Shown here in pieces: positions 18,416-52,545 of a DNA stretch of 64,000 nucleotides (position 1 is its first letter; every line of letters begins with the position of its first letter). The translations under genes and the position numbers were made by a program. Under the pieces are notes generated by a model. It ran no database searches and was not told the DNA's origin. It saw only the letters and a list, made by a program, of their open reading frames with translations. This stretch comes from Synechococcus sp. NOUM97013 (GTDB lineage Bacteria > Cyanobacteriota > Cyanobacteriia > PCC-6307 > Cyanobiaceae), in NCBI RefSeq assembly GCF_014279815.1, contig NZ_CP047941.1:1488001-1552000 (forward strand), in the 5' to 3' direction.

Positions 18416-18545
18416 CAGCAGCTCCGCGCTGCTGCCATCTTGCCCAGGCCGAAGGGCTTGGCATCCGGCTCGAATGCGTGTTCATGCCGATTGTTTTTCA
18501 CCGGCAGCGGATCTATCTCTGTGTTCATTGATACAGGAGGGTCCG

Positions 18546-18590
18546 ATGACGGATGCCACTCCACCGCAGCAGCTGGGCCGATCGATCTGA
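18546..18590 (+). CDS. Tiny ORF of the MT(A/D)(D/A)TPP family, copy 1
   Basis: A 14-residue peptide MTDATPPQQLGRSI with a strong ribosome site (GGAGG, 5 nt spacer). It matches two other tiny ORFs at 29878 and 52168 in start, length class and sequence. Here the 101-aa gene follows 65 nt downstream, so it could act as a leader peptide. The downstream tail shared by the other copies is not obvious here. Confidence 0.5.
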   Translation: MTDATPPQQLGRSI

Positions 18591-18655: not shown

Positions 18656-18961
18656 ATGCTGATCAACAAGCAACAGAAAAGCGTCCAAACCGGCGAGCCG
18701 CTGCTGAACACCGTCAGCGCCTCAATGGAATGCCAGGCCCGCAACGATCGTCAAACCTATTTCTCGATCACCCGAAGCCTTGTGAAGGCCCAGTTTCAAT
18801 TGGCTGACCAGGAACTGAGCCAACGGCTCTGGCAAGACGTGGCTGACCGCGACCTCGAAGTGGGGCGGATCATTCATCTGATGTATGGATGCTGGTTTCA
18901 CGGCGACGACGAAGCCATGACCGAAACCGACGATCAGTTCCTGTCGATGAGCATGTCGTAG
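18656..18961 (+). CDS. Conserved hypothetical protein (101 aa)
   Basis: A mainly helical soluble protein with SITRSLVKAQFQLADQELSQRLWQDVADRDLEVGRIIHLMYGCWFHGD and an acidic, Met/Ser-rich tail. The ATG at 18656 is preferred because GGAG lies 5 nt upstream; the frame stays open to 18440, but that part has no protein-like character. No domain recognised. Confidence 0.6.
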   Translation: MLINKQQKSVQTGEPLLNTVSASMECQARNDRQTYFSITRSLVKAQFQLADQELSQRLWQDVADRDLEVGRIIHLMYGCWFHGDDEAMTETDDQFLSMSMS

Positions 18962-19133
18962 ATCCCGGACACCAATTCACCCCTGTGTATCCGCGCGAAC
19001 GACACAGGGGTTGACCTCGGCGCTATAAAAAGTCTGTAGCAACCGCTACTTACAACGTTCACCTCACAGCTCGTGAGGCGCAGTTCGACTCAGGCCATGG
19101 AACGGGGACCTGAGCTTGCTTCGAGGAACCCTC

Positions 19134-29753: not shown

Positions 29754-29877
29754 TCCAGAACCAAGCACGCCACTAGCACTTTCAGGGACTCGCACTGAAT
29801 CAGGCAATGCGCCGTCCTGCTCATTGCCATTGCAGGGCTCGAGACCAAAACTGGTTGCATCGAGATCGGAGGCGCTG

Positions 29878-29922
29878 ATGACAGCCGACACTCCACCCAA
29901 CCAGATCGCAGGAGCTTTCTGA
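29878..29922 (+). CDS. Tiny ORF of the MT(A/D)(D/A)TPP family, copy 2
   Basis: A 14-residue peptide MTADTPPNQIAGAF with GGAGG 5 nt upstream. It has the same length and pattern as copy 1, which argues for translation. Divergent from the lipoprotein gene. Confidence 0.5.
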   Translation: MTADTPPNQIAGAF

Positions 29923-30237
29923 CTTTTCGGCCCCCTGCTCCAACAGTTTCCACCCATCCGTGAGGCTGGTCCTTCGACAGGCAAACATCCGGTGCGCCAG
30001 GTCGATCGACACTCCACTGCATCGTCCAGGCAGGGACAAACTGCCGAAGGTGCCCCGGAGCTGCATCAGCCCCACTTCTGGACGTCATGGCCCCAGGGAA
30101 CCACAGCCAGATGCTTCGACCCTTCCTCGACAGATGACGTGACGGGTTGAACCATGCACAAGCGAGCGAGTTAGGCCGTCGTCTCCATCCGGAACGATCG
30201 GCCTCCCAAATCTGAACAATCACGTTCAGGACTCATT

Positions 30238-30281
30238 CCCCAGATCCCTTTCACTCCAGGGGGTCTGGGGTTTGTTTTTTT
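30238..30281 (+). terminator. Rho-independent terminator of element copy 2
   Basis: CCCCAGA (30238-30244) pairs with TCTGGGG (30264-30270), with extra C-G pairs inside, followed by TTTGTTTTTTT. Confidence 0.85.
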
Positions 30282-30600
30282 GAGAATCTGACAGCATTAA
30301 TTGAACAGAGCGAGAGCGATAAGCATTCCAGCGCCACTAGCCCGACGCATGGACAAAAGCCAAGCAGGAGCGGCAAGACCATCGTTCAACACCAACGATC
30401 TAGAAGCGCCAGGCACAATCCCAGCAAGCGTGAAAACAGAAGATAAGAAAGCTCGATCGACACACTCGCAATCAACAGACCCTGTTCACGTCCATTGGCC
30501 TCGCAGGCGAGAACTGATGATTCAAAGAAGGAGACCGGTCCTCTGCATGCAATACGGAACACTTTGAAAGTCAACGATGACTCGACATGTTCAGCCACGC

Positions 30601-32825: not shown

Positions 32826-33093
32826 ACGATTCAGACCTCTTCCACCAAAGCCAACACTGACGAACTGTGAGAAGACAAAAAAAACCCCCGCCAAAGGCAG
32901 GGATTTGAAAACGTCTCTTGGGAGTGTTTCCTTGTTTCCACCCCATGAGGCGTTTTTTCCTCACAACAGAAATATGACAAGGCAACTGTCACAGTGACAG
33001 TCCAAGGCATCCACTTCAGCAACCGGCCAACCGCTGGCAACCTTCAGTCCCCGACAGACAATCCACTGGAGCAACGTTCGTCACCCACACACC

Positions 33094-51968: not shown

Positions 51969-52167
51969 GTCTCAAACGAGGCCAAGGCATGGTCCAGGGC
52001 CTGAAGGATCCAAGCCCTGAACAATCCAAGGCTTGACGTGCAGTGAATCGATCAGGCACAGCATTTTCACCATCACCCAGCTGATGTGAAACAGCAATGC
52101 GTGATTGCACTGATTGCCTCATCGAATCAGAGCATCAACACTGGTGTCAGACAACAGGAGGTACCGC

Positions 52168-52200
52168 ATGACGGCCGACACTCCACCTGAGCAAGCCTGA
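52168..52200 (+). CDS. Tiny ORF of the MT(A/D)(D/A)TPP family, copy 3
   Basis: A 10-residue peptide MTADTPPEQA with GGAGG 6 nt upstream. It shares the first seven residues with copy 2 but stops four codons earlier. Confidence 0.5.
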   Translation: MTADTPPEQA

Positions 52201-52509
52201 GAAGCCTTTCGACTGTTCGCCCCTGCTCCAGCGCTCCCTCAACCAAAGTCAGACTGCTCCAGCAAGGATCACCATCAAAGGTCCATGCAGTTCTGGTCTC
52301 ACTGGAACCTGGCCCCAGGCACCTTCAGCCGGATTGTTCGCTTCTGTTCTTCCTTTCCTTTGCTTCATTCACTGTCCTTCGCAACGGATTCGACCAAGGA
52401 TTCACGCTCAGCATCAGACAGGAAGCCAATGAATCAACGAGCGAGCTAGGCCGTTTCATTCATCCGAGTGGAGCGGTCATCCATGACCAGCCAACCTGGC
52501 TGGCAACAA

Positions 52510-52545
52510 CCCCCAGGATTCAGAGCCAACACTGAATCCTGGGGG
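52510..52545 (+). terminator. 14-bp perfect hairpin, terminator-like
   Basis: CCCCCAGGATTCAG (52510-52523) pairs perfectly with CTGAATCCTGGGGG (52532-52545) around an 8-nt loop. The T-tract after it is weak (TCTATTC), so termination may be partial. It sits 7 nt before the GH57-like ATG and would block its ribosome site if transcribed through. Confidence 0.65.

Follow-up and report, generated by a model that had tools for sequence, protein, structure and literature searches.

A Shine-Dalgarno-led mini-ORF under amino-acid-level selection at the 5′ end of the cyanobacterial RNA Yfr103, and its possible role in translation gating

The 5′ end of Yfr103 bears a Shine-Dalgarno (SD)-led mini-ORF, and the pattern of codon changes among its copies shows selection at the amino-acid level that extends only up to Asp-Thr-Pro-Pro. 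From this comparison of sequences, we infer that the mini-ORF is translated. The reading that we prefer, to which we give a probability of roughly 45%, is that Yfr103 may be a translation-gated small RNA, in which a ribosome would initiate at the 5′ end, pause at the Pro-Pro codons against a conserved helix (P1), and thereby protect or gate the RNA. If the 5′ end is indeed translated up to a di-proline lying 12 nt before a helix, a dominant marine “non-coding” RNA would prove to be a translation-coupled device. A translated 5′ mini-ORF in Yfr103 is probably unreported, judging from the main text of one paper on this RNA, where the terms ORF and open reading are absent (PMC5069720).

The element and its copies in the window

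In the window, by which we mean the whole stretch of 64,000 nt analyzed here, GGAGG is followed by an ATG at 18546 (site A) and 29878 (copy B), each opening 14 codons, and at 52168 (copy C), which opens 10 codons, in all cases on the plus strand. An earlier note on this DNA had pointed out these three sites with their tiny ORFs, and both the sequence and a motif scan bear them out; the scan gives exactly three matches on the plus strand and none on the minus strand, and none of 200 mononucleotide-shuffled versions of the window contains a match, which is a weak control. The three sites share the head but are otherwise unequal, as site A lacks the Yfr103 body and looks like a gene leader only. 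Copies B and C are whole elements, and site A is a head only. A whole element runs from an upstream palindrome (approximately 75 to 50 nt 5′ of the ATG in both copies) through a strong SD, the mini-ORF, and a tail of around 300 to 400 nt with shared blocks, to 3′ hairpins (Table 1). The tail blocks described as common to copies B and C are real, comprising CCTGCTCCA, TGGCCCCAGG, and CGAGCGAG(T/C)TAGGCCG, with the hairpins coming next, and the last block lies at +285 and +270 from the ATG. In contrast, the element start, formerly placed at 29866, has to be moved further upstream, to take in the palindrome and the predicted transcription start of copy B. This 5′ end was deduced from CC9605-type copies, with starts set at the conserved A and unmapped, and the RNA probably ends, on the evidence of its sequence, at the T-run 3′ of the second hairpin, at about 30282.

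A GH57 gene has its ATG 7 nt past the end of the 14-bp final hairpin of copy C. A role for copy C as the leader of this gene was considered and is unsupported because, among 10 loci, the GH57 frame opens at the ATG behind the hairpin in the window's own locus alone. As for other RNA elements, Rfam matches identify a Glutamine-II riboswitch and a Cyano-1 sRNA elsewhere in the window; over copy B, the Rfam search gave no family, its best result being Pseudomon-1, which at E 0.95 scored 16.9 bits where the gathering score is 50.

Table 1. Positions of the elements discussed in the text, in window coordinates.
Feature	Position	Strand	Details
Copy B, imperfect palindrome	29803-29828	+	GGCAATGCG...CATTGCC; -56 to -31 from predicted start; putative regulator site
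Copy B, predicted 5′ end and SD	29859-29872	+	ATCGAGATC; predicted transcription start 29859; GGAGG 29868-29872
Copy B, mini-ORF	29878-29922	+	MTADTPPNQIAGAF, then stop; D-T-P-P core codons 29887-29898
Copy B, P1 5′ strand	29911-29921	+	GGAGC 29911-29915; CTG 29919-29921; 12 nt past second Pro codon
Copy B, near-invariant motif	29934-29942	+	CCUGCUCCA; predicted partner UGGCCCCAGG
Copy B, inner hairpin	30019-30053	+	GCAUC...GGUGC
Copy B, 3′ strands	30088-30117	+	UGGCCCCAGG 30088-30097; CAG 30108-30110; GCUUC 30113-30117 (closes P1)
Copy B, tail block and hairpin	30160-30203	+	AAGCGAGCGAGTTAG; hairpin GGCCG...CGGCC; marine Synechococcus-type tail
Copy B, second hairpin	30238-30282	+	followed by TTTGTTTTTTT; likely terminator
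Copy C, whole element	52094-52545	+	
Copy C, palindrome	52094-52117	+	
Copy C, SD	52157-52161	+	
Copy C, mini-ORF	52168-52200	+	MTADTPPEQA, then stop
Copy C, P1 5′ strand	52201-52205	+	12 nt past Pro-Pro
Copy C, shared block	52222-52230	+	CCTGCTCCA
Copy C, shared block	52310-52319	+	TGGCCCCAGG
Copy C, P1 3′ strand	52340-52344	+	GCTTC
Copy C, tail block	52435-52453	+	
Copy C, hairpins	52449-52478 and 52510-52545	+	
Site A, head	18460-18590	+	no Yfr103 body
Site A, palindrome-like sequence	18460-18489	+	
Site A, SD	18536-18540	+	
Site A, mini-ORF	18546-18590	+	MTDATPPQQLGRSI, then stop
101-aa protein gene	18656-18961	+	downstream of head A
Glutamine-II riboswitch	19053-19114	+	Rfam match
Cyano-1 sRNA	32904-32970	-	Rfam match; presumably the Yfr2 family

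The 101-aa protein encoded downstream of head A has no match at E ≤ 0.01 in Pfam or NCBIfam, and relatives of its gene are present in 27 of 31 genomes of the genus. Twenty loci of these relatives were fetched, 12 of which were readable by script, and in six of these 12, a head lies no more than around 250 nt upstream of the conserved protein motif; these six include L302, where the start codon has been lost. Judged by this arrangement, head A looks like an sRNA head captured as the leader of the 101-aa gene.

Correspondence with Yfr103

Genome G245, which we take to be that of Synechococcus CC9605, contains seven strong copies of the head, with E values from 1.1e-28 to 8.5e-20 under the head model R1 described below, plus three weak ones (1.1e-8 and, twice, 0.03). 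In the seven copies, the distance from the conserved A of ATCGAG, which is the predicted 5′ end, to CGAGCG is 282 to 320 nt, and this spread of 38 nt equals that of the 290 to 328 nt published for the seven Yfr103 paralogs of CC9605 (PMC5069720). In the same paper, an imperfect palindrome spans roughly -58 to -29 relative to the start; in 7/7 of the G245 copies, the palindrome starts at -54/-55, counted from starts set at the conserved A and unmapped, and the palindrome region of copy B, which is conserved among the aligned copies, also agrees with the published position. Furthermore, genome records named WH7803 and RCC307 carry copies of the element, and both strains are among those named with Yfr103, together with SS120 (PMC5069720). 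Matched in this way through the copy number, length spread, palindrome, and strains of the published description, the element in the window is identified as a copy of Yfr103 on strong but indirect grounds, and the label of an uncharacterized family, under which it was first noted, falls because of this match.

Yfr103 has been described as an ncRNA that is abundant in marine Synechococcus and several Prochlorococcus, with a function called “enigmatic”; it has been reported to accumulate more highly than any other transcript in marine populations of Synechococcus CC9605-like cells and accounts for 55.2% of the CC9605 mdRNA-Seq reads, so that transcription is already published for the family in that strain (PMC5069720). 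Our picture differs from the published one, which is of an ncRNA with a predicted structure, in that it includes a codon-selected mini-ORF and a helix at a near-constant distance from its Pro-Pro codons. The range of the head also goes far past the strains named in that paper, as it was found in 55 of the 59 genera sampled.

Distribution of the family

The earlier note had proposed a search of related genomes, and many further copies turned up. BLAST with copy C gave matches at E ≤ 1 in 25/25 genomes of the genus, with 2 to 13 per genome and only a weak result in G005 (E 0.048), and nine other genomes contain near-full-length matches to this copy (L002 to L010). In other families, 11 of 15 genomes were matched at E values of 0.076 to 0.86, which is chance level. 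We aligned 51 copies and built two models, one for the head (R1, from 47 copies, without structure) and one for the tail (R2). R1 matches 290 of 400 Cyanobiaceae genomes in the 55 genera mentioned, while R2 matches 79 of the 400 in 12 of 59 genera, several only weakly; thus, the head is family-wide, but the marine tail is not. Some of the loci for R1 were collected by a pattern that fixes most core bases, and divergent heads may therefore escape this model; likewise, searches over more than 40 genomes had stricter filters, under which weak matches may drop out.

In a class-wide draw of 242 genomes, R1 matched 19, of which 18 were Cyanobiaceae. The match outside the family (G033, E 1.5e-4) was rejected and is taken as chance, given that it has neither an SD-led start nor CCTGCTCCA and resembles a portion of a gene. 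None of the 11 genomes listed for the genus g33 (1.6 to 1.7 Mb), which we take to be high-light Prochlorococcus, has an R1 match, and relatives such as G049 have the family. Phage-borne copies were also considered and rejected: a scan of viral contigs with one exact 17-base pattern, to which diverged copies would be invisible, gave five stretches, of which R1 supported none fully, as it found a partial match inside a 101-aa reading frame in one (L248) and nothing in the other four. Within the family, locus L027 (G013:C1:2267800-2269700) contains three tandem copies with a 450-nt period and the same mini-ORF peptide, and this triplet is a recent tandem amplification. No fixed neighbor is evident, since four copies from small, Prochlorococcus-sized genomes adjoin different genes among the ORFs scanned, namely those for IF-2 and a radical SAM protein (L290), DNA polymerase A and a Cys-type tRNA synthetase (L291), and TauE (L292 and L293).

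Selection on the mini-ORF

The 288 loci gave 282 profile hits, of which 195 unique copies remained after 87 repeats were dropped, and 190 of these have an SD-led in-frame start (ATG in 164, TTG in 22, and GTG in 4); the five others comprise one copy cut at the core, three in which an ATG or near start fails the SD pattern, and one with ACG. The 190 ORFs stop at TGA (175), TAA (9), or TAG (5), one being cut, and their length is 13 to 14 codons in 155, 7 to 11 in 29 (including one truncated at the end of a contig), and more than 20 in 6. Their core reads DTPP in 174, DGPT in 6, ETPP in 3, and NTPP in 2, with five other versions occurring once each. One of the latter, EPHL, is a frameshift, and apart from this copy, 8 of the 190 cores have no full Pro-Pro (6 DGPT, 1 DSPT, and 1 DTPS).

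Changes at each codon position were counted by parsimony on an approximate tree made from the flanks. In the four core codons of 191 copies, positions 1, 2, and 3 changed 15, 10, and 84 times (binomial p 1e-20), and among the 98 copies whose loci had been retrieved through R1, the counts were 9, 6, and 56 (p 5e-15). For the next four codons past Pro-Pro, the corresponding counts were 145/140/131 and 94/80/75 in the two sets, while a neighboring conserved RNA motif, when read in threes, gave 42/45/22 and 27/32/18, which is uneven but far less so than the core. The Thr codon occurs as ACT, ACC, ACG, and ACA, and the second Pro codon as CCT, CCC, CCG, and CCA. Given that the codons following Pro-Pro are without codon-position periodicity, amino-acid selection appears to end there, and these codons also tolerate stops and frameshifts. 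A second mini-ORF in the tail, MHKRAS followed by a stop, was rejected, as its start or stop is missing in L013, L066, and L070, and we treat it as an RNA motif and not as a gene.

The seven G245 copies are less uniform, with DTPP in two, DGPT in three, and a frameshift within the core in two. At loci L226 and L227 of this genome, the D-T-P-P core is shorter by the same one base, yet both have CCTGCTCC as well as the tail block, so these frameshifted copies offer a natural test of the importance of the ORF for abundance.

RNA structure and its distance from the Pro-Pro codons

The structure was tested on 48 diverse copies that had been aligned without structure. Helix P1 is formed by GAAGC/GCUUC, GGAGC/GCUCC, or, in one copy, GCAGC/GCUGC, and its second pair (AU in 25, GC in 20, GU in 2, and CG in 1) is paired in 48/48 copies, with about five pair-state changes on an approximate tree. 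Considering all 20 pairs together, 97.0% of the cells pair and 24 are double-changed, and 0 of 500 shuffles reach these values or the covariation score; 74 of the 500 shuffles have at least as many double-changed pairs (3), and 343 at least as many further pair types (12). For the marine tail hairpin, 97.2% of the cells pair, with 33 double-changed cells and double changes in 6 of the 12 pairs; of 500 shuffles, none attains the proportion of paired cells, the double-changed cells, or the covariation score, 7 reach the number of pairs, and 14 the pair types. Covarying helices, by which the earlier note had proposed to judge the element, are seen in both P1 and the marine tail hairpin, and together with the codon pattern and the many copies, they support its suggestion of an RNA family with a conserved mini-ORF and selected blocks. 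In addition, CCUG pairs with CAGG in 48/48 copies and the adjoining CCA with UGG in 42/48, and the former pairing gives no covariation because it is invariant. When two copies were folded thermodynamically, neither exceeded its shuffles clearly in stability (z -0.82 and -1.37), and P1 was absent from the folds. A hairpin that would sequester the SD by GGAG/CUCC pairing was also considered and rejected, as this pairing is lost in many other members of the family.

P1 overlaps codons 12 and 13 of the 14-codon ORFs and codons 11 and 12 of most 13-codon ORFs, with the stop lying inside or beside it, and because of this overlap, the apparent protein conservation at the C-terminus (EA/GA) is best ascribed to the RNA. 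Measured from the last base of the second Pro codon, P1 lies at a distance of 12 nt in 174 of 187 copies (93%), 11 nt in 8, 10 nt in 1, and another value in 4, with no recognizable P1 in 7 further copies; if the first P1 candidate is taken instead of the one nearest to 12 nt, 163 of the 187 are still at this distance. For comparison, the mode share is 0.35 for the interval from SD to D, 0.65 from start to D, 0.54 from SD to start, and 0.47 from P1 to CCUG. Among the 35 copies whose ORF is not of 13 to 14 codons, 22 are at 12 nt, 8 at 11, 1 at 10, and 1 at 2, and 3 have no recognizable P1. Copy C holds the 12 nt even though its ORF stops before P1. Nevertheless, the frame is broken in each of the 8 copies at 11 nt and in the single copy at 10 nt, and frame-keeping may therefore explain part of the constancy. 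Counted from where the P-site codon begins, the front edge of a ribosome lies about 15 to 16 nt away, and on this figure, the 12-nt distance corresponds to about the front edge of a ribosome paused on Pro-Pro. Thus, the near-constant gap suggests a ribosome pause at this point.

A model of translation gating and its alternatives

We propose that a ribosome would load at the 5′ end of the RNA, make fM-x-(x)-D-T-P-P, and pause on the di-proline, where its front edge would abut P1. Parked there, it would cap the 5′ end while the folded body stays intact, which could help the RNA to be very stable and abundant. Relief of the pause, through EF-P, prolyl-tRNA, or the translation rate, which may change with light or temperature, would let the ribosome run into P1, and the opening of this helix would expose or destroy the RNA body. 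Ribosomes of E. coli without EF-P pause at PPE and PPN, as well as at some PPQ sites (PMC4140641), and in B. subtilis, RNAs are stabilized by strong SDs or by ribosomes stalled at the 5′ end (PMC3997798). It is also possible, although we would say so only tentatively, that Yfr103 is a ribosome-parking RNA, in which the ribosome trapped at the di-proline caps and stabilizes the RNA or holds a ribosome reserve, coupling the transcript to the translation status (EF-P, proline, and light or temperature). The main evidence against the pause model comes from G245, taken as the strain of the measured abundance, which keeps DTPP in only two of its seven copies.

Other explanations would assign the mini-ORF a different role or none. 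Yfr103 might be a classical base-pairing sRNA in which the mini-ORF serves only for ribosome-mediated stabilization of the 5′ end and ACUCCACC, CCUGCUCCAAC (C/U-rich), or AACGAGCGAG are target seeds, as would suit the near-invariance of the CUCC-containing motifs and the presence of a block with invariant AACGA.CG directly 5′ of the 3′ hairpin. However, we find this doubtful, given that the CCUG/CAGG and CCA/UGG pairings reported above leave the motif predicted as paired and that AACGAGCGAG cannot be a family-wide function, because its tail model matches only 12 of 59 genera. We consider it unlikely that Yfr103 is an mRNA for a functional micropeptide of 7 to 14 aa, whose long tail serves mainly as a 3′ UTR or forms a regulatory RNA of its own. 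The preservation of the start, SD, frame, and D-T-P-P at the amino-acid level across many genera, in a head found in nearly all of those sampled, is what one would expect of such an mRNA, but the residues past Pro-Pro have no codon periodicity and can be stops or frameshifted, the C-terminal EA/GA is accounted for by P1, and a free peptide has no need of a near-constant 12-nt gap to this helix. Finally, the ORF could be incidental to a non-coding RNA, with the D-T-P-P bases kept for structure. RNAalifold does pair GGAG of the SD with CUCC of the ORF in 25 marine copies, with even the weakest of the four pairs formed in 23 of the 25; elsewhere in the family, however, CUCC becomes CCCC, CGCC, or CACC, which breaks the pairing and keeps the Thr, and the codon-position pattern of the core is absent in the next codons and much weaker in the adjoining motif. 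This last explanation is thus highly improbable, and we regard the non-coding reading of the ORF as largely refuted.

Comparison with known systems

Several known systems resemble the proposed translation-gated RNA in part. Arrest-peptide leader ORFs with RAPP-like C-termini (PMC12992588) share with Yfr103 a short ORF containing Pro-Pro and selection on the residues before the pause, and as expected of an arrest leader, selection in the Yfr103 mini-ORF reaches only to the presumed stall site, with periodicity ending after Pro-Pro. In contrast to these leaders, in which RAPP or RGPP lies upstream of a regulated gene (PMC12992588), the DTPP of Yfr103 is near the start of the RNA, usually with no conserved gene downstream; copy B has its own likely terminator, and the four small-genome copies adjoin varied genes, the exception being the 101-aa gene family behind head A. 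For the latter, a parallel may be found in the actuatons, in which an sRNA cassette is read into a downstream gene (PMC5386190), as head A and several heads elsewhere directly precede one small protein gene; this likeness is one of arrangement alone, and the other copies examined are without such a gene.

The dual-function sRNAs SgrS/SgrT and SR1/SR1P (PMC5126843) likewise combine an ORF and a long RNA part in a single transcript. Nevertheless, they encode functional peptides of 43 and 39 aa, whereas the Yfr103 ORF has 7 to 14 codons as a rule, with selection that stops at Pro-Pro and a stop codon inside or beside an RNA helix. Lastly, the ermC stall sequence and the STAB-SD 5′ stabilizers (PMC3997798) are similar to Yfr103, an abundant RNA, in having an SD near the 5′ end and, as we propose for Yfr103, a ribosome there. 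The difference is that in Yfr103 a nascent di-proline, without any antibiotic, would bring about the proposed stall, and that this stall would abut a conserved helix.
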